From contig JAODBK010000072.1 in NCBI GenBank assembly GCA_025463925.1, positions 1-64,000 of the forward strand: a stretch of DNA of 64,000 nt, in the 5' to 3' direction. Each line of letters begins with the position of its first letter. Within the stretch, counting starts at the first letter, position 1. This DNA is from Acidimicrobiales bacterium (GTDB lineage: Bacteria; Actinomycetota; Acidimicrobiia; Acidimicrobiales; AC-14). Position numbers and translations under genes: made by a program. Under the pieces are notes generated by a model that was given only the letters and a program-made list of their open reading frames with translations, made no database searches and was not told where the DNA came from. Shown here in pieces: positions 7,225 to 19,839 of this stretch.

Positions 7225-7262
7225 GAGAGATGGCCGGGGCCCTTTCGCCCCGGCCATCTCTC
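7225..7262 (-). terminator. strong hairpin between amt and glnB
   Basis: A perfect 16-bp stem with loop CCTTTC lies seven bases beyond the amt stop codon and 49 bases before the glnB start. It lacks a T-run. It may act as a partial terminator or as a stabiliser of the 3' end of amt mRNA, setting the Amt to PII ratio. Confidence 0.6.
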
Positions 7263-11277: not shown

Positions 11278-11883
11278 GTGGACGACGATCGCTCGGTCCG
11301 AGCCGGGCTCGCGGTCTCGAACGTGTCGCTGGCGTGGACGGTCGCCAGCAGCACCGCGGCGATGGCGATCGGGTTGACGCGCCGGAGCCTCGTGCTGGTC
11401 GCGTTCGGTGCGATCGGCGTGCTCGACGCCGTCGGCTCGGCCGCGCTGGTCGTCCATTTCCGGCACGCCCTGCGCCACGAGGCGATGTCCGAACGCCGCG
11501 AGCGCGTCGCGCTGCACGTCATCACCATCGGCTTGATCGTCCTCGGGGTCGTGACGGCGGCCGAGAGCGTCCGGCGGCTCGTCAGCGACGCCCACGCCGA
11601 CCGCGCGCTCGAGGGCACCGCGCTGGCCGCGGCGTCGGCGGTGGTGCTCGCCGCTCTCGGCCGGCGGAAGCGGATCGTCGGCCGGCGGATCCCGAGTCAT
11701 GCGCTGGTGGCCGACGGGTGGGTTTCCACCACCGGCGCGCTGCTCGCGGCCGTGACCGTCATCGGCACCGCGATCAACGCCGCGTTCGGCTGGCGCTGGG
11801 TCGACGCCGCGGCCGCGCTGGCGGTTGCGATCGGCGCGGTCGTGATCGCTCTCCAACTCCGCGGTGAAACCCCCGTTCTTTGA
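11278..11883 (+). CDS. CDF-like membrane protein, transmembrane domain only
   Basis: A 201-residue protein with five to six hydrophobic segments resembling the membrane domain of cation diffusion facilitators. The helix-2 site appears as FGAIGVLDAVGSA, but the helix-5 site reads ALVADGWVSTTGALLA, where the usual His and second Asp are Trp and Thr. There is no cytosolic C-terminal domain. Metal transport is therefore doubtful; it may be a paralogue with another role. The GTG start lies 7 bp after the glnD stop. The 3' end forms one arm of an 18-bp inverted repeat. Confidence 0.55.
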   Translation: MDDDRSVRAGLAVSNVSLAWTVASSTAAMAIGLTRRSLVLVAFGAIGVLDAVGSAALVVHFRHALRHEAMSERRERVALHVITIGLIVLGVVTAAESVRRLVSDAHADRALEGTALAAASAVVLAALGRRKRIVGRRIPSHALVADGWVSTTGALLAAVTVIGTAINAAFGWRWVDAAAALAVAIGAVVIALQLRGETPVL

Positions 11884-11930
11884 ACCGCTGACCACCGCCG
11901 CGGTGGGCAAACGTTCAAAGAACGGGGGTT
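11868..11930. repeat. perfect 18-bp inverted repeat, probable bidirectional terminator
   Basis: The arms at 11868-11885 and 11913-11930 are exact reverse complements (left arm AACCCCCGTTCTTTGAAC). The 27-nt spacer itself contains a 6-bp hairpin (CCACCG/CGGTGG). The left arm includes the stop codon of the CDF-like gene, and the structure sits between convergent genes. It could be a terminator or a dispersed palindromic element; I saw no second copy in the window. Confidence 0.7.
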
Positions 11931-11978: not shown

Positions 11979-13559
11979 TCATGATGACGATGGACGCGCT
12001 GGAGCGCCGGAGTCGGCATTTCGGGTGACTCGCCGGGCGCCCCAGGCCGCGGCCAGCGCCGCGATCCCGCCGGTCGGGGAGGACCACCAGTCTCCGCCGG
12101 TCGCAGGAAGTCGGCCGGCCGGGCCCGTGCCGCCGCTCGCGCCCGTCGCCCCCGCGGCCGCGCCCAGCGACTCGACCCTCGCGTGCGGATCGGCAGTCGA
12201 GCACGCGGCCAGCGCCGGGTTCGCGGCCGCCGCCAGTGCGGGTGGTTCGGCGAACGCCGGGCTGGTGAAGTCGAAGAAGTCGAGGAGATCGTCGGCGTTG
12301 GCGTCACGATAGGTGAGCGCCGGGAGGTTCCACTTGGTCTCGATCAGCTTGAGGATCGAGGTGTGGTCGTGCACCACCGGCGACACGTAGTTCCGGCGGG
12401 ACCACGGCGACACGATCGCGGCAGGCACGCGGATGCCGTAGATGTCGAAGCGCCCGGGGGTGTCGGCACGACCCAGCTTCGGCGCGATGGAGTCCGGTGG
12501 GATCGCGGCCGGCGGCGGTACGTGGTCGTAATAGCCGCCGTGCTCGTCGTAGACCCAGATGAGCGCAGTGCGGGCCCACTGCGGTGACCGCATGACCGCG
12601 TCGACGACGCCGGCGACGAACGCCTCACCGATCTGCACGTTCTGCGGGTTCTCCTCGTCGCCGCCCTGGGCGCGGAGCTCGGGTGGGGCCGCCTCTCCCG
12701 GAATGAACCCACCGGCGACGTCGGCCGCGCCGAAGTCCGGGTCGACGATCGACACCGCGGGCAGCAACCCGGCGGCCGCGTCGGTGAAGAACTGCGCGAT
12801 CGGTACGACGTGCTGGGCATTGTGCTCGAGCACCGAGGGGAACAGCGCGGTCTGCGGCAGGTCGGTGAAGTAGTTGCGCCAATTGAGGCCGTGGGCGTTG
12901 AGCCGATCGAAGATCGTTCCGTTCGGCGGCGGTGGGTCGGACGGCTGTGGCACCGGGTCGTCGATGAGGCCGAGCGCGGTCGCGGCCATGAGGAACCGCC
13001 GGTTCGGATAGGTCTGCGCGGTGCAGGAGGCGAACCACCGGTTCGCCAGTGGAAAGGTCGTCGCCAGCGAGTAGTAGAAGGGCAGATCGGTCTCGTCCCA
13101 GTACCCCATGGCGACGTCGCCGGACGCGGCCACGAAGCCGGACATCGCACCGCCGGCGATCGACGTCCGGGTGGCGGTCCAGGCCTGGCTGGGCTCGTGC
13201 TCCATCTGGCACTCGGTGGGCATGCGGAAGGCGCGGATCACGCCTCCGGGGGCCGGGTTGGCGTTGGTCGGCCGCCCCCCTGCGTCGAACGTGAAGCCGT
13301 CGGCCGCCGGGCGACCGCGCTTCGGCAACATGCCGAGGTAGTTGTCGAACGAGTGGTTCTCCATCATCACGACGACGACGTGATCGATCGGGATGCGGGG
13401 GTCGGGCTCGCCCGCGGGTCGCAAGGGATCCGGGAGCGACCCCGGCGGTCGCACCGCGCCGAGCGCCCACGCCGGCAGCGAGCGCAGACCCCGACGGGCC
13501 ACGACCAGTCCGGCGGCTCCGAGCTCCAGGAAGCGCCGACGGGTGAGCCCGGCCGACAT
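11979..13559 (-). CDS. Tat-exported phosphoesterase (phospholipase C/acid phosphatase family) with LPATG tail
   Basis: A 526-residue member of the phosphoesterase family that includes phospholipase C and AcpA-type acid phosphatases. Family signatures are DHVVVVMMENHSFDNYLG near residue 60, a YPNRRFLM segment, and YDEHGGYYDHVPPP near 335. The N-terminus TRRRFLELGAAGL is a Tat signal. The C-terminus carries LPATG (484-488), a short weakly hydrophobic stretch and Arg-Arg, a sortase sorting signal. A class E sortase gene is at 40985-41890. Its ATG overlaps the stop of the upstream phosphatase (TGATG), so the two are translationally coupled. It probably releases phosphate from lipids or phosphomonoesters at the cell surface. 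Confidence 0.85.
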   Translation of the reverse strand: MSAGLTRRRFLELGAAGLVVARRGLRSLPAWALGAVRPPGSLPDPLRPAGEPDPRIPIDHVVVVMMENHSFDNYLGMLPKRGRPAADGFTFDAGGRPTNANPAPGGVIRAFRMPTECQMEHEPSQAWTATRTSIAGGAMSGFVAASGDVAMGYWDETDLPFYYSLATTFPLANRWFASCTAQTYPNRRFLMAATALGLIDDPVPQPSDPPPPNGTIFDRLNAHGLNWRNYFTDLPQTALFPSVLEHNAQHVVPIAQFFTDAAAGLLPAVSIVDPDFGAADVAGGFIPGEAAPPELRAQGGDEENPQNVQIGEAFVAGVVDAVMRSPQWARTALIWVYDEHGGYYDHVPPPAAIPPDSIAPKLGRADTPGRFDIYGIRVPAAIVSPWSRRNYVSPVVHDHTSILKLIETKWNLPALTYRDANADDLLDFFDFTSPAFAEPPALAAAANPALAACSTADPHARVESLGAAAGATGASGGTGPAGRLPATGGDWWSSPTGGIAALAAAWGARRVTRNADSGAPARPSSS

Positions 13560-14338
13560 CAGTCGAGCAATGCCATCCGGAGACGGTCACCAGCCTGGGG
13601 CACGCCGAGCTCCTCGACCAGTCCGGCGAACCCGCCGTGCTCGTCCTCGACCGACCGGATGAACGCGGCCATCGTCTCGGGTGCCGCCGCGACCATCGCC
13701 GGGGCGTAGGTCTCGATCGCTTCTGCCCGCTCTGGGTCCTCGCGGTTCTCGCTGCGGAAGAACGCGACCATGCGCTCCATCGCGGCCGCGCTCAACGCGT
13801 AGTCGGCGACGATGACCTCGTCGGCGACGCCGACGAGGCCGAGGACAATGGCCGCGAGGATGCCGGTGCGGTCCTTGCCGGCCGAGCAGTGGAACACCGC
13901 CGGCAGGTTGCCGGGGTCGCCGAGCACGGTGAGCGCCTCGACCACGGCGGCGCGGCCGTTGCCGAGCATCTCGACGTACCGGTCGGCGACGATCGACGGA
14001 TCGACCCACCGGGGGAAGTCCTTCCGGTCGGGGAGCACGTCGATCATCGGCAGGTGGTGGTACGCCGGCGCAGAGCCGCCGGGCCCGGCGCCGACGAAGC
14101 GGCCGAACTCGTCGAGCTCGGCCGTCGTGCGCAGGTCGAGCACCGTCGCCAGGCCGAGCGGACCGAGCACCCCGAGGTCGTCCGGCGTCAGCCGGCTGAG
14201 TCCGTCGGCGCGGAACAGCCGCCGCCACTTCATCCGCCGGCCGTCCATGGTCTCGTAGCCGCCGAGGTCGCGGAAGTTGAAGCAACCGGTGAGCGCGATC
14301 GCCCGTTCGAACCCGTCCTCGAGCGTCACGGTCGGCAC
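13559..14338 (-). CDS. protein tyrosine/serine phosphatase (PtpB-like)
   Basis: A 259-residue phosphatase with the Cys-x5-Arg loop HCSAGKDRTG near residue 152 and the early NFRDLGGYETMDGRRM motif of the Y_phosphatase3 family (MPtpB-like). The KDR in the loop is typical of enzymes that also accept phosphoinositides. The start is GTG 14338, five bases after the arsR stop, and the stop overlaps the start of the exported phosphoesterase. This gives a minus-strand unit arsR-phosphatase-phosphoesterase. The target is unknown. Confidence 0.85.
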   Translation of the reverse strand: MPTVTLEDGFERAIALTGCFNFRDLGGYETMDGRRMKWRRLFRADGLSRLTPDDLGVLGPLGLATVLDLRTTAELDEFGRFVGAGPGGSAPAYHHLPMIDVLPDRKDFPRWVDPSIVADRYVEMLGNGRAAVVEALTVLGDPGNLPAVFHCSAGKDRTGILAAIVLGLVGVADEVIVADYALSAAAMERMVAFFRSENREDPERAEAIETYAPAMVAAAPETMAAFIRSVEDEHGGFAGLVEELGVPQAGDRLRMALLD

Positions 14339-14343
14339 GTTAC

Positions 14344-14685
14344 CTAAGGCGCGAGCGCACGCCGGAGTGTCGCCAGACGCTCGGGCACGGCGCGCCAGTA
14401 GACCCAGCGCCCGCGCTTCTCGCCGACGATGAGCCCGGCGTCGGCCAGTGCCTTGGTGTGGTGGCTGATCGTGGGTTGCGCCTTGCCGAGCGGTACCTGC
14501 AGATCACAGGAGCAGACCTCGTCGGCCGCCGCGACCATGCTGAGCAATCGGAGTCGCACCGGGTCGGCGAGCGCGGCGAAGACTCGGGCCAGTTGGTCGG
14601 CCTCGTCCTCGGCCAGCGGGGCGGCGAGCACCGACGCACAGCACTGGTCCTCGGCATCCAGCACGGCGACCGACTTCCTGGCCAT
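14344..14685 (-). CDS. arsR: ArsR family As(III)-responsive repressor
   Basis: A 113-residue winged-helix repressor. Cys15-Cys16 near the N-terminus, together with Cys58 and Cys60 in EVCSCDL, resemble the three-cysteine arsenite site of Corynebacterium CgArsR1 (Cys15, Cys16, Cys55) and the classical CxCDL motif. The recognition helix lies in QPTISHHTKAL. Start ATG 14685 is fixed by AGGAGG four bases upstream. It is divergent from the arsenic genes, with a perfect dyad in the shared promoter, so it most likely represses both units and itself. Confidence 0.88.
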   Translation of the reverse strand: MARKSVAVLDAEDQCCASVLAAPLAEDEADQLARVFAALADPVRLRLLSMVAAADEVCSCDLQVPLGKAQPTISHHTKALADAGLIVGEKRGRWVYWRAVPERLATLRRALAP

Positions 14686-14715
14686 GGAGCCTCCTGGGAC
14701 TTTCCCATTGACAAC

Positions 14716-14750
14716 CGTCGATGCATTTTGCAAGAGTCAATGCATCGACG
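14716..14750. promoter_or_regulatory. ArsR operator candidate: perfect 12-bp dyad
   Basis: The arms CGTCGATGCATT (14716-14727) and AATGCATCGACG (14739-14750) are exact reverse complements around an 11-nt spacer. They lie in the 91-bp region between arsR and the arsenic genes. A TTGACA at 14708-14713 could be the plus-strand -35 element; no clear -10 follows. Confidence 0.7.
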
Positions 14751-14776
14751 ATGACGAATGTACCAGGGAGGCCCCG

Positions 14777-15235
14777 ATGTCGCGAGTGCAGCTCGCACTG
14801 AACGTGTCCGATCTCGAAGAGGCCGTGGCCTTCTACTCGAAGCTCTTCGCGACCGAGCCGGCAAAGGTGCGGCCGGGCTATGCCAACTTCGCGATCGCCG
14901 AGCCCCCGCTGAAGCTCGTGCTCATCGAGGGCGTGGGCGAGCCCGGTTCGTTGAACCACCTGGGTGTCGAGGTCGAGTCGGCCGGCGCCGTGGCCGCGGC
15001 CAACACCCGCCTCGCGAGTGAAGGCCTCGCCCGCGTCACCGAGGACGGGGTGGCGTGTTGCTACGCGGTGCAGGACAAGGTGTGGGTCGACGCGCCTGAC
15101 GGCGAGCCGTGGGAGATCTACACCGTGCTCTCCGACGTCGAGATGCCAAGTGGTCAGCTCCGCACGGTCGACCCCGACGGCGACGCGCGGTGCTGCGCGA
15201 CGGCGCCCGAATCCGCAGCCCGCTGCTGCGGTTGA
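14777..15235 (+). CDS. arsI: ArsI/CadI family metalloprotein, glyoxalase fold
   Basis: A 152-residue vicinal-oxygen-chelate protein. His61, the Glu in GEPWEIYTVL and the vicinal Cys94-Cys95 in ACCYAVQDKVWVDAPDG match the ArsI/CadI family: ArsI is a C-As lyase that demethylates trivalent methylarsenicals, and CadI is a cadmium-induced protein. Unusually, the C-terminal tail has two more Cys-Cys pairs (DARCC and AARCCG), possibly extra metal ligands. GGGAGG precedes the ATG. It is first in a three-gene arsenic unit. Confidence 0.85.
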   Translation: MSRVQLALNVSDLEEAVAFYSKLFATEPAKVRPGYANFAIAEPPLKLVLIEGVGEPGSLNHLGVEVESAGAVAAANTRLASEGLARVTEDGVACCYAVQDKVWVDAPDGEPWEIYTVLSDVEMPSGQLRTVDPDGDARCCATAPESAARCCG

Positions 15236-15951
15236 CGCGGTTGGACCGCGATCTTGCTCGGCGGGCGACCGCCGAGGCCGTCGGCACCGCGCTGCTCGTC
15301 GCCATCGTCGTGGGCTCGGGCATCTACGCCCAGCGGCTCTCGCCGGGCGACATCGGGCTGCAGCTGCTGGAGAACTCGATCGCCACCGGCGCCGGGCTCA
15401 TCGCGCTGATCCTCGCGTTCGGGTCCGTCTCGGGCGCGCACCTCAACCCGGTGGTCAGCCTGGCCGACCGGCTGCTCGGCGGGATCACCAACCGTGCCCT
15501 GGGCGCGTACGTCGTCGCTCAGGTGGTCGGCGCGTGCGCCGGCGCCGTCGTGGCAAACCTCATGTTCGACCTCGATCCCGTCACCTGGTCCACGCACCGC
15601 CGTTCATCAGGTGGGATGTGGCTCGGTGAGGTCGTGGCCACGTTCGGTCTGCTCATCGTGATCCTCGGCGTGGTCCGGTCGGGCAGGAGCGCATCGGCGC
15701 CGTTCGCGGTCGGCGGTTACATCGCGGCGGCGTACTGGTTCACCAGCTCCACGTCGTTCGCCAATCCGGCGGTCACCGTCGGCCGCATGCTCAGCGACAC
15801 GTTCGCCGGCATCGAGCCGTCGTCGGCACCGGCCTTCGTCGTGGCGCAGGTCGGTGGTGGCATCCTCGCCGTGCTCCTGGCGCGGTTCCTGTATCCCGAC
15901 CTCCCAGCCGACCGGTTGGTCGTCCCGCACGACCGGTCGGCCGCCGCGTGA
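15232..15951 (+). CDS. aquaporin/MIP family channel (AqpS-like)
   Basis: A protein of about 239 residues with six hydrophobic segments and both pore motifs: GAHLNPVVSL in the first half and SFANPAVTVGRM in the second. Next to arsC it resembles the AqpS arrangement of Sinorhizobium, where an aquaglyceroporin conducts arsenite outward after arsenate reduction. TTG 15232 overlaps the upstream stop (TTGA); GTG 15190 is an alternative start. No ArsB or Acr3 pump is encoded nearby, which supports a channel-based efflux role. Confidence 0.82.
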   Translation: MTRLDRDLARRATAEAVGTALLVAIVVGSGIYAQRLSPGDIGLQLLENSIATGAGLIALILAFGSVSGAHLNPVVSLADRLLGGITNRALGAYVVAQVVGACAGAVVANLMFDLDPVTWSTHRRSSGGMWLGEVVATFGLLIVILGVVRSGRSASAPFAVGGYIAAAYWFTSSTSFANPAVTVGRMLSDTFAGIEPSSAPAFVVAQVGGGILAVLLARFLYPDLPADRLVVPHDRSAAA

Positions 15952-16367
15952 GCCCCGAGGCCGCCGGGCCGGCAGTGCTGTTCCTCTGTGTCCACAACGC
16001 CGGGCGCTCCCAGATGGCGCTCGGCTGGTTCACCCATCTCGCCGGCGACCGGGCGCTCGCCTGGTCCGGCGGCAGTGAGCCGGCCGACGAGATCAACCCG
16101 TCGGCGGTCGCGGCGATGGCCGAGGTCGGCATCGACATCACCGGCGAGTTCCCGAAGCCCTGGACCGACGAGATCGTGCGGGCTGCCGACGTCGTCATCA
16201 CCATGGGCTGCGGCGACGCCTGCCCGTTCTACCCGGGCACGCGGTACGAGGATTGGGAGCTCGACGACCCTGCCGGCCAGGGCCTCGACGCGGTCCGCCC
16301 GATCCGGGACGAGATCGAGCGTCGGGTGCGGGTACTGCTGGCCAGTCTGGACGTGTCCCTCGGGTAG
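15948..16367 (+). CDS. arsC: arsenate reductase, low-molecular-weight phosphatase type
   Basis: A 139-residue LMW-PTP-fold reductase converting arsenate to arsenite. The P-loop CVHNAGRS has nucleophile Cys14; Cys88 and Cys92 in MGCGDACPFYPG are the relay cysteines of the thioredoxin-linked class; the DP dipeptide near residue 107 supplies the catalytic Asp. GTG 15948 overlaps the aquaporin stop (GTGA). Whether it uses thioredoxin or mycothiol cannot be read directly; the Cys triad favours thioredoxin. Confidence 0.92.
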   Translation: MSPEAAGPAVLFLCVHNAGRSQMALGWFTHLAGDRALAWSGGSEPADEINPSAVAAMAEVGIDITGEFPKPWTDEIVRAADVVITMGCGDACPFYPGTRYEDWELDDPAGQGLDAVRPIRDEIERRVRVLLASLDVSLG

Positions 16368-16475: not shown

Positions 16476-16801
16476 ATGGCGTGGGGTCGGCGACAGGTGG
16501 TGATCGAACCCCTCCGGGCGGTGCCCGAGCCCGAGCCGGGCCTCGATTCCCTCGACATCTCGGTGGTCCATCTGTTCGCCCTGGTGAGCGAAGGCATCGT
16601 GGCCTGCACGAGCACGTTCCTCGCCGCGGGGACGACGAGCTCGACGATCTGCACGTCGTCTTGACGGCGGAGCTGGCGACCGCGAACCTGCCCCTGGCGG
16701 CGGCCATCGAGATGGGCCTCGTGGCCCGATTCTTCGAACGGCTGGGCGACCATGCAGTCAACGTCGCTCGACAGCTCGACGTCCTCTGGGAGGTTGTGTG
16801 A
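16476..16801 (+). pseudogene. PhoU-like single-domain protein, frameshifted
   Basis: The frame from ATG 16476 (GGAGG at 16466-16470) encodes about 52 residues. It then loses register at a GGGG run (16628-16631). One extra G would restore it and join DDELDDLHVVLTAEL... through GLVARFFERLGDHAVNVARQL to the TGA at 16799-16801. The joined 108-residue product matches one PhoU repeat, and the DHAVNV motif also appears in the two full PhoU proteins of the window. The stop overlaps the GTG of the next gene (GTGA), which is typical of a working operon. It may be a sequencing error, a recent mutation or programmed slippage. Confidence 0.65.
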
Positions 16802-17377: not shown

Positions 17378-18448
17378 GTGATCCGACGTAGTTCGCTCGT
17401 GGCGGCCCTCGTGCTGACGCTCGCGCTCGTGGCGGGGGCCTGCAGCTCCAGCAAGTCGAAGACGAGTACCAGCAGCGGCGGTACCACCGCCACCACCGTG
17501 GCCGGGGCCAACGACACCGCTTCGCTCTCCGGCGCCGGCTCGACGTTCGTCAACACGATTCTTCAGGAGTGGGTGAAGGGCTACAAGGCGGTGGCCCCGC
17601 ACGTGGCGATCAACTATCAGAGCGTCGGCTCGGGCGCCGGCATCCAGCAGCTGATCGCCAAGACCGTCGACTTCGCCGGATCGGACGTGGCGCTCAAGGC
17701 GGACGAGGCCACGAAGGTCGGCGACCCGGTCCAGATCCCCTGGGTCGCGGGCGGCATCGCCGTCGAGTACAACCTCTCCGGGGTCACCGACCTCAAGCTG
17801 TCGGGTCCGACGCTCGCCGGCATCTTCGCCGGGAAGATCAAGAAGTGGGACGACGCCGCGATCAAGGCCGACAACAGCGGCACCACGCTGCCGAGCACGG
17901 CCATCCAGGTCGTCCACCGCTCGGACGGGTCGGGCACGACGTCGGTGTTCACCTCCTACCTCTCCGCGGTGGCGCCCACCACGTGGACCTACGGCGCCGC
18001 GAAGGACGTGCCCTGGCCGACCGGCACCGGGGCCAAGGGCTCCGACGGCGTCAACGGCGCGGTGAAGGCCAGCACGGGAGCGATCGGCTACGCCGAGGTC
18101 AGCTATCCGAAGAACACGCCGGGCCTCGGGATCGCGTTGATCAAGAACGCGAGCGGTCAGTTCGTCGGCCCGACCACCGCCGCGGTCACCGCGGCGCTGG
18201 CCTCGGCCACGCCCAATGCCGACGGCACGCTCAAGATCAACTACCAGCCGGCCGACGCCGCGGCCTACCCGATCAGCACGACGACCTACGTGATCTACGC
18301 GAAGTCGCTGGCCGCCGACAAGCTGACGGCGCTCAAGCACTGGATCGCCTGGGTGCTGACCGACGGTCAGACATCCGCCGCCGGCTTGGACTACGCACCG
18401 CTGCCGCAGTCGATCCTCGACAAGGCACTCCAAGCAGTCAACGCCTGA
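17378..18448 (+). CDS. pstS: phosphate ABC transporter substrate-binding lipoprotein
   Basis: A 356-residue lipoprotein: the signal peptide ends in the lipobox LVAGAC with the lipidated Cys near residue 23. Phosphate-binding segments LSGAGSTF and HRSDGSGTTSVF are characteristic of PstS. Start GTG 17378 is set by AGGAGG five bases upstream. It stands alone: no pstC, pstA or pstB follow, so the rest of the transporter must be encoded elsewhere. A response regulator starts 3 bp after its stop. Confidence 0.93.
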   Translation: MIRRSSLVAALVLTLALVAGACSSSKSKTSTSSGGTTATTVAGANDTASLSGAGSTFVNTILQEWVKGYKAVAPHVAINYQSVGSGAGIQQLIAKTVDFAGSDVALKADEATKVGDPVQIPWVAGGIAVEYNLSGVTDLKLSGPTLAGIFAGKIKKWDDAAIKADNSGTTLPSTAIQVVHRSDGSGTTSVFTSYLSAVAPTTWTYGAAKDVPWPTGTGAKGSDGVNGAVKASTGAIGYAEVSYPKNTPGLGIALIKNASGQFVGPTTAAVTAALASATPNADGTLKINYQPADAAAYPISTTTYVIYAKSLAADKLTALKHWIAWVLTDGQTSAAGLDYAPLPQSILDKALQAVNA

Positions 18449-18451
18449 CGG

Positions 18452-19156
18452 GTGGCCGCGCCCGAGACGACCGTGCTCGTCGTGGAGGACGAGGAGTCGT
18501 TCGTCGAAGCGCTCATCGTCGGGCTGAAGCGGGAGGGGTTCCGGGTCAAGGCGGCCCGGGATGGCGAGGAGGCGCTGGCGTTGTTCGACAGCGTCCAGCC
18601 CGACCTCGTCCTCCTCGACATCATGCTGCCCCGGATGTCGGGCCTGGATGTCTGCCGCGAGATCCGGACCCGCTCCCGCGTACCGATCATCATCGTCTCC
18701 GCCAAGACCGCCGAGATCGACACCGTCGTCGGTCTCGAGGTCGGGGCGGACGACTACGTCACCAAGCCGTACCGCCTCCGGGAGCTCGTCGCCCGGATGC
18801 GGGCGGCGCTCCGCCGGGTGCCGCCGAGCCTGGACGAGGACGACGGTGGCGTCGACGCGATCGAGGTCGGCGACGTGCGCCTGGATGCCGGCAAGCACGA
18901 GGTGCACGTGCGGGGCCGCCGGGTCGACCTCCCGCTGAAGGAGTTCGACGTCCTCGAGGTGCTCCTGGTCAACGCCGGCCGCGTCGTGACCCGCGACATG
19001 CTGATCGACCGGGTGTGGGGCGCGAACTACGTCGGCGACACCAAGACGCTCGACGTCCACATCAAGCGGTTGCGGGCGAAGGTGGAGGACGACCCGTCCA
19101 TTCCGCAGCGCATCGTGACGATTCGAGGATTGGGATATAAGTTCGAGTCTTCCTGA
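18452..19156 (+). CDS. regX3: OmpR-family response regulator (PhoP/RegX3-like)
   Basis: A 234-residue regulator with a receiver domain (acidic pair Glu12-Asp13, phosphoacceptor Asp56 in LLDIMLP, Lys in VTKPYR) and a C-terminal winged helix ending in TIRGLGYKFESS. The closest functional class is PhoP/RegX3, phosphate regulators. No histidine kinase is adjacent. Lying 3 bp after pstS and overlapping phoU (TGATG), it probably activates its own operon through the PHO box. Confidence 0.88.
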   Translation: MAAPETTVLVVEDEESFVEALIVGLKREGFRVKAARDGEEALALFDSVQPDLVLLDIMLPRMSGLDVCREIRTRSRVPIIIVSAKTAEIDTVVGLEVGADDYVTKPYRLRELVARMRAALRRVPPSLDEDDGGVDAIEVGDVRLDAGKHEVHVRGRRVDLPLKEFDVLEVLLVNAGRVVTRDMLIDRVWGANYVGDTKTLDVHIKRLRAKVEDDPSIPQRIVTIRGLGYKFESS

Positions 19157-19839
19157 TGCAAACGCGCCACGGGTTCGACGAGCAGCTCCGTGAGGTGCGG
19201 ACGAACGTGCTGCGCCTGGCGGCGCTGGCCCGCGAGGCCGTCACCGCCGCCACCGAGGCGCTGCTCGCAGGCGAGGCCGGGACGGTCGAGGCGGTCCTGC
19301 GGGTCGACGAGGAGATCGACGACCTGGTCGCCCACCTGGAGAACCAGTGCTTCGAGATGATGGCCCGGCAGCAGCCGATGGCCTCGGATCTCCGCACCCT
19401 GGTCGCGGTGCTCCGGGTGATCCACGAGCTCGAGCTGACCGGCGACCTGATGACGTCGGTGGCCAGTGCCAGCGGCCGGCTCCGGGTCATGACGCTGAAT
19501 CCCCGCCTTCGTGGGATCCTCGCCCGCATGGGGGCCCAGGTCGGCGAGCAGCTCGACCTGGCCGCCAAGGCCTTCGACGAGTGCGACATCGGCGCGGTCG
19601 ATCAGCTGGAGCAGATGGACGACGGGATGTCCGAGATGTCCCGCGAGCTGTTCGCGGTGCTGTTCGACCTCGGCACCGGCGAGGCCGACGCGCTGCGCCG
19701 GGCGGTCGACCTGGCCCTCGTCGCCCGGTTCTTCCAGCGGGCGGCCGACCACGCCGTCAACGTGGGCGCACGCGTCCGCTACATGGTCGTGGGCGAGATG
19801 CCCGCGCCGCATCCGGTGCGCGACGTGGTGGGGCCATGA
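19156..19839 (+). CDS. phoU: phosphate signalling protein PhoU
   Basis: A 227-residue PhoU of normal length with two three-helix repeats, each containing the E/D-x3-D metal-binding pattern, and a C-terminal LVARFFQRAADHAVNVG signature. PhoU represses the Pho response when phosphate is plentiful by linking the Pst transporter with the sensor kinase. ATG overlaps the regulator stop and its own stop overlaps the ppk1 start (ATGA), so translation is coupled. Confidence 0.92.
   Translation: MQTRHGFDEQLREVRTNVLRLAALAREAVTAATEALLAGEAGTVEAVLRVDEEIDDLVAHLENQCFEMMARQQPMASDLRTLVAVLRVIHELELTGDLMTSVASASGRLRVMTLNPRLRGILARMGAQVGEQLDLAAKAFDECDIGAVDQLEQMDDGMSEMSRELFAVLFDLGTGEADALRRAVDLALVARFFQRAADHAVNVGARVRYMVVGEMPAPHPVRDVVGP

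Follow-up and report, generated by a model that had tools for sequence, protein, structure and literature searches.

The intergenic region between arsR and arsI in an Acidimicrobiales bacterium contains a perfect 12-bp inverted repeat, and the question is what such a repeat does in a divergent promoter. The DNA analysed, here termed the window, is a 64,000-nucleotide (64 kb) stretch of this genome. The dyad sits in the 91-bp gap, 14686-14776, that separates arsR on the minus strand from arsI on the plus strand, and consists of CGTCGATGCATT and its exact reverse complement AATGCATCGACG with a loop of 11 nt (Table 1). An earlier note on this DNA had placed the repeat correctly in the divergent promoter and had taken it for a single ArsR operator with long arms. 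That interpretation gives way here to another, as the arms coincide with the inner 12-nt halves of two predicted 12-2-12 sites. Very probably the locus is a divergent arsR/arsI promoter with two tandem predicted ArsR-dimer operators of the SmtB/ArsR 12-2-12 type, and the dyad is a by-product.

The dyad and its gene neighbourhood

At the local level the repeat is unusual. Dinucleotide shuffling of the 91-bp gap, repeated 20,000 times, never produced a perfect inverted repeat of 12 bp, loops of up to 40 nt being allowed. Across the 64 kb there are 13 raw matches of this kind, compared with 1, 0, 1, 4 and 9 in five shuffles, and the 13 form three nests, at 7225-7262, at 11868-11930 and at the arsR/arsI dyad. 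Such repeats are therefore not rare window-wide, and the significance of the dyad is a local one. Of 165 loci scanned for the exact dyad (loop 5-30 nt), 163 lack it and the remaining two (L001 and L072) are the window itself; a scan of viral contigs gave no match. Conservation of the half-sites, described below, is stronger evidence than the inverted repeat itself.

Table 1. Features of the arsR/arsI region of the window
Feature	Position	Strand	Remarks
PF04185 phosphoesterase	11979..13559	-	start overlaps phosphatase stop by 1 nt
Y_phosphatase3-family phosphatase	13559..14338	-	PF13350; 5 nt after arsR
arsR, ArsR/SmtB repressor	14344..14685	-	ATG at 14685; Cys15-Cys16 and Cys58-x-Cys60
Predicted operator O1, 12-2-12 register	14702..14727		core ATTGAC-AACC-GTCGAT, 14707-14722; 27.4 bits, best in window
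Proposed arsI -35, TTGACA	14708..14713	+	inside outer half of O1
Dyad left arm, CGTCGATGCATT	14716..14727	+	right (inner) 12-nt half of O1
Proposed weak arsI -10, AAGAGT	14732..14737	+	in dyad loop; 18-bp spacer; placed from relatives
Dyad right arm, AATGCATCGACG	14739..14750	+	left (inner) 12-nt half of O2
Predicted operator O2, 12-2-12 register	14739..14764		core ATCGAC-GATG-ACGAAT, 14744-14759; 13.2 bits, second-best
arsI/cadI, ArsI/CadI-family VOC metalloenzyme	14777..15235	+	ATG at 14777; NF041414, 192.6 bits (cut-off 116)
MIP-family aquaporin	15190..15951	+	PF00230; start codon uncertain
Low-molecular-weight-phosphatase-type arsenate reductase, ArsC-like	15948..16367	+	PF01451

The arsR product has an ArsR-type helix-turn-helix domain (PF01022, 38.5 bits, cut-off 22; NF033788, 84.2 bits, cut-off 55). 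With NF041413, the model of the Rv2640c family, it scores 87.8 bits, below the curated cut-off of 155. Arsenate-reductase models match the ArsC-like protein below their cut-offs. Further downstream, at 16476-16801, there is a piece of a PhoU C-terminal domain (PF01895, 24.3 bits) in a frame that differs from that of the upstream open reading frame 16476-16664. Possibly this is a frameshifted phoU-like gene between arsC and a PstS-like gene. Phosphate-type genes follow the arsenic genes at 17378-19839. They encode a binding protein of the PBP family, which by eye resembles PstS, together with an OmpR-type response regulator and a PhoU protein.

The earlier note also proposed joint control of the arsenic genes with arsR and the phosphatase and phosphoesterase genes behind it. 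The 5-nt gap and the 1-nt overlap indicate that these three genes are likely co-transcribed in the window. The arrangement is nearly private to this genome. Among the loci compared by tblastn, some of which end soon after arsR, the window is the sole case in which the phosphatase adjoins arsR, and in one other locus arsR has a phosphoesterase relative beside it. The latter locus is from an Acidimicrobiaceae MAG (L087:1501-3080); the relative has 48% identity, overlaps the stop codon of arsR with its start, and follows the same paired sites. Of 99 genomes, counting that of the window, 43 have the phosphatase and 48 have the phosphoesterase. When their places were compared by eye with those of arsI, none adjoined arsR outside the window (for the phosphoesterase, among the matches listed). 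Thus, the left-hand arsR operon is not a conserved arsenic module. Joint control of the arsR and arsI sides is well supported as a prediction because the divergent pair is common, and control extended by read-through to the phosphatase and phosphoesterase is plausible.

A conserved motif in related promoters

Counting the genome of the window, 67 of the 99 genomes have arsI. The gene occurs at 76 places in total, and 70 of these were taken as loci. By tblastn, a divergent arsR lies next to arsI in 57 of the 70, again with the window included. The dyad was thus correctly assigned to a divergent arsR/arsI promoter, and the region appears to be ArsR operator DNA. The 13 loci without a divergent arsR were left out of matrix scoring; three of them (L022, L036, L045) carry exact core matches. 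The arsR starts were set by a heuristic and are apparently wrong in a few loci (L016, L021, L051, L053).

The arsR/arsI promoters of the 56 relatives share a conserved unit, ATYGAC-N4-GTCRAT. When inward-facing half-sites with at most one mismatch each are paired, a gap of 4 occurs 99 times, other gaps between 0 and 40 occur at most 14 times, and the shuffled mean is 0.34 per gap. A gap of 4 corresponds to a 7-2-7 arrangement when the base next to the centre is included. This is the 12-2-12 type of repeat, with an imperfect extension to 12 nt in the window. A matrix was built from 77 sites in the regions of 48 of the 56 relatives, with the window held out. Sites of at least 7 bits number two or three in 50 of the 57 regions (that of the window among them); five regions have a single one and two have none. 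The count is partly circular, the matrix having been derived from these same relatives. Centres of neighbouring sites are 15-44 bp apart (17 cases at 18 bp, three at 15 and the others at 27-44). Spacing between sites therefore varies, while the gap within each site is fixed at 4. Upstream of arsI in L003, L012, L020, L023, L027 and L031, three operator-like sites occur at 18-bp steps, the middle one falling in the -10 region.

The presence of sites follows the type of ArsR. Cys58 and Cys60 are present in 55 of the 57 ArsRs, window included, and Cys15 and Cys16 in 54. The promoters without sites are L034 and L061, and the adjoining ArsRs are the only two without Cys58 and Cys60. The two or three ArsRs that lack Cys15/Cys16 (L019, and L051, whose start may be wrong) keep their sites.

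A second set of 80 loci was collected by ArsR similarity, as the best 80 of 559 confirmed. The nearest named loci in these best 80 are mostly Acidimicrobiia MAGs. Scanning the 300 bp upstream of the match gave one or more sites scoring at least 10 bits in 74 of the 80 loci, and two or more such sites in 62. Control stretches of 330 nt starting 30 nt into the match gave 0/80, and shuffles 0/400. Six of the 80 loci are the same DNA as in the first set; without them the figures are 68/74 and 56/74. Twenty-four loci are labelled by title as outside Acidimicrobiia (Streptomyces, Actinomadura, Nocardia and others), and all of these are distinct from the first set. A site is present in 21 of the 24, and 15 carry two. 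The two-site layout thus recurs in other Acidimicrobiia and in Streptomyces. Six of the 80 loci, including all three of Actinomadura, have no site in the scanned stretch, and in one locus scored as site-free (L149) the core is matched exactly, more than once, at approximately 800 bp upstream.

In the window, O1 and O2 rank first and second in the entire 64 kb with the matrix built without it, and the third site scores 5.6 bits. Both dyad arms match 12-nt half-operators base for base. Each arm is a complete 12-nt half-site, which explains its apparent length for an ArsR operator; the two belong to different predicted operators. Several observations speak against the tandem reading, among them the second-set loci without a site and the ArsRs that lack Cys15/Cys16 and still have theirs. 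In the window, the right half of O2 is degenerate (ACGAAT compared with GTCRAT), and symmetry is 6/12 between the halves of O1 and 4/12 between those of O2, compared with 12/12 between the facing inner halves. A middle site at 14726-14741 (TTTTGC-AAGA-GTCAAT), considered in view of the 18-bp packing in relatives, scores only -0.2 bits in the window and was rejected; in L023 the corresponding place does hold a site, of 9 bits.

Elsewhere in the same genome the exact core is found once more, inside an open reading frame (C63:24765), so that it occurs at two places in all. Allowing one mismatch raises the number to 17, compared with 1 in the control. Fifteen of the 17 were scored, and the best outside the window, at 15.8 bits, is also inside an open reading frame. 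An 11.3-bit operator-like site lies at the end of an open reading frame in L083:1501-1516 (C94:43378-43393 of the same genome). By eye, this frame resembles a Y-family polymerase, and a VOC/glyoxalase-like reading frame lies downstream of the site. A second ArsR target here is a weak lead.

Promoter elements and alternative readings

The outer half of O1 carries TTGACA, a proposed -35 box. Followed outwards from the centre, this half is TGTCAAT in 39 of the 45 relatives compared. In relatives a -10-like hexamer is phased to the box. One with A2 and T6 is found at a spacer of 17 bp downstream of the O1 TTGAC in 23 of the 41 relatives considered, whereas the other spacers between 12 and 25 give 0-8. 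A hexamer with at least three matches at 16-19 bp is present in 35 of the 41 (shuffles: mean 7.8, largest 17). Fifteen of the 56 relatives are outside the TTGAC-anchored pattern and were excluded from these counts. In the window, TTGACA lies in O1 within the 91-bp divergent gap, its own -10 is weak, and the phased -10 comes from the relatives. AAGAGT has only 3/6 matches to TATAAT, and its 18-bp spacer fits A2/T6 in only 4 of the 41 relatives, which also counts against the tandem reading. A strict sigma-70 scan for a promoter in the window found nothing, and an arsR promoter was looked for but not located. O2 would lie just past the weak -10, around the predicted arsI transcript start at approximately 14743.

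These positions suggest a mode of control. Without inducer, ArsR dimers on O1, which holds the proposed TTGACA -35 of the arsI promoter, and on O2, just beyond the proposed weak -10 and near the predicted transcript start, would keep RNA polymerase from transcribing either way. Arsenite, or perhaps another thiophilic metalloid or metal, would be bound by Cys15-Cys16 and Cys58-x-Cys60 and would free the operators. Release would turn on arsI-aquaporin-arsC rightward, and arsR with the two genes downstream of it leftward. The perfect dyad would arise from two inner half-operators that face each other across the -10.

A different reading, which we consider improbable, is that the dyad itself is the operator, a single dimer of ArsR (or a dimer of dimers) recognising CGTCGATGCATT-N11-AATGCATCGACG as one long-armed site. 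The perfect 12/12 pairing of the inner halves favours it. Comparison was made with the 45 relatives that have a site pair 26-45 bp apart, the 11 of 56 without such a pair being excluded. In these the inner halves agree at a mean of 7.9 of 12 positions with a maximum of 10, and the identity in the window is exceptional. The earlier note had suggested a search for the dyad near arsR in related genomes. It is the sites that are conserved there and not the perfect dyad, as 0/45 relatives reach even 11/12. The distance from site to site, 15-44 bp, varies with a constant inner gap of 4, and the outer halves, which are no part of the dyad, are also conserved, that of O1 most strongly; both properties argue against a single long-armed site.

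Inner halves do agree better within a genome than when re-paired between genomes (7.93/12 vs 7.15), a difference reached in 0/2000 permutations, and this again favours the single dyad. Excess over re-pairing in the spacer and core bases is reached in 8/1000 re-pairings for the inner halves, and in 467/1000 for the halves of O1 and 357/1000 for those of O2. In the flank bases a within-genome excess is seen between the halves of O1 (3/1000) and of O2 (0/1000) as well. We read the flank excess, which counts against the single dyad, as a probable lineage-specific flank preference of each ArsR. The core excess of the inner halves may possibly arise because promoter boxes constrain the outer halves. 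It nevertheless leaves some room for the single-dyad explanation and slightly lowers confidence in tandem operators.

The repeat might also act in RNA, as a leader structure or terminator hairpin in the 5′ leader of arsR or arsI. The stem does fold (z -2.9 on the plus strand, -3.4 on the minus strand), as is inevitable for a perfect repeat. An intrinsic-terminator scan found none, however, and an Rfam search gave no match. In addition, the proposed arsI start would leave the left arm untranscribed, and neither spacing nor complementarity of the arms is kept in relatives. An RNA hairpin is therefore very improbable. To a functionless chance repeat we give next to no credence: perfect 12-bp repeats with loops of up to 40 nt do occur elsewhere in the window and in shuffles, but the local shuffles yielded none, and the half-sites fit a motif conserved in the same promoter of relatives.

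Two tandem operators remain the preferred explanation. A more elaborate form of it, a conserved actinobacterial O1/-10/O2 design with the O1 outer half as -35, cooperative packing of ArsR, inner halves driven to identity and a switch-like response, is a speculation that we think doubtful. If true, one promoter would carry two or three dimers of ArsR, spaced by 18 bp in some relatives, e.g., L012, L003 and L020, and the inner halves in the lineage of the window would have been driven identical, giving both dimers matched affinity. A switch-like arsenic response would then also drive the phosphate-releasing phosphatase and phosphoesterase from the arsR side.

Significance and comparison with known systems

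The motif provides a concrete predicted operator for an actinobacterial ArsR type; the literature search, with partial coverage, listed none for that type. ATYGAC-N4-GTCRAT was not found as an ArsR operator in the passages of the literature that were covered. The motif may be usable for mapping arsenic regulons in Acidimicrobiia and Streptomyces. More generally, a striking repeat can represent the facing halves of two neighbouring sites and not one site.

The Cys-Cys and Cys-x-Cys set of the window ArsR may resemble the alpha-3N site of CadC. Its best solved relative is CgArsR of Corynebacterium glutamicum (PDB 6j0e, E 9.2e-17), with which it shares the N-terminal Cys15-Cys16 pair. There are no cysteines in 6j0e at the place aligned with Cys58-x-Cys60, and the third ligand of the type 3 site, Cys55, is not at the same position, the window protein having Cys58 and Cys60 in its stead. 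The type 3 arsenite site of CgArsR is Cys15/16/55, and the type 1 R773 protein has its cysteines in the DNA-binding domain, according to the passages covered of PMC11868830; the window set thus resembles parts of the types known from that source. At the gene level, the arsR-arsC2-cadI-aqpS neighbourhoods of Frankia, also an actinobacterium, have the same gene set, and the passages covered of PMC4531530 do not describe their operator.

In the covered parts of PMC8790569, PMC5658604 and PMC7994332, the targets of SmtB/ArsR regulators are 12-2-12 repeats; a promoter has one or two of them, close to the -35, the -10 or the start, or overlapping it. In Thermus thermophilus the TtSmtB operator is a 6-2-6 palindrome whose footprint overlaps the -35 box (PMC5658604, in part). 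The 2-nt centre and the -35 overlap are likenesses, predicted from sequence in the present case, but TtSmtB has one 28-bp protected region with a different sequence, TTGCTCAA. In Pseudomonas putida, ArsR footprints extend from -39 to +14 at Pars1 and from -36 to +23 at Pars2 (PMC7994332, in part). These are likewise partly palindromic sites over a promoter, a placement that is a prediction for the window; they differ in sequence, and the operons are not arsI-aquaporin-arsC.

The closest likeness of layout is to the smt, zia and nmtA operators as given in the passages covered of PMC8790569, which have 12-nt halves with a 2-nt centre and a repeat, single or double, close to the start site or across it. 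There, the nmtA repeat overlaps a predicted -35, and ziaR is divergently transcribed. The half-site differs, being ATYGACA/TGTCRAT here and, for example, CTGAACA/TGTTCAA in one repeat there. Unlike those operators, the two predicted sites of the window bracket the proposed -10.
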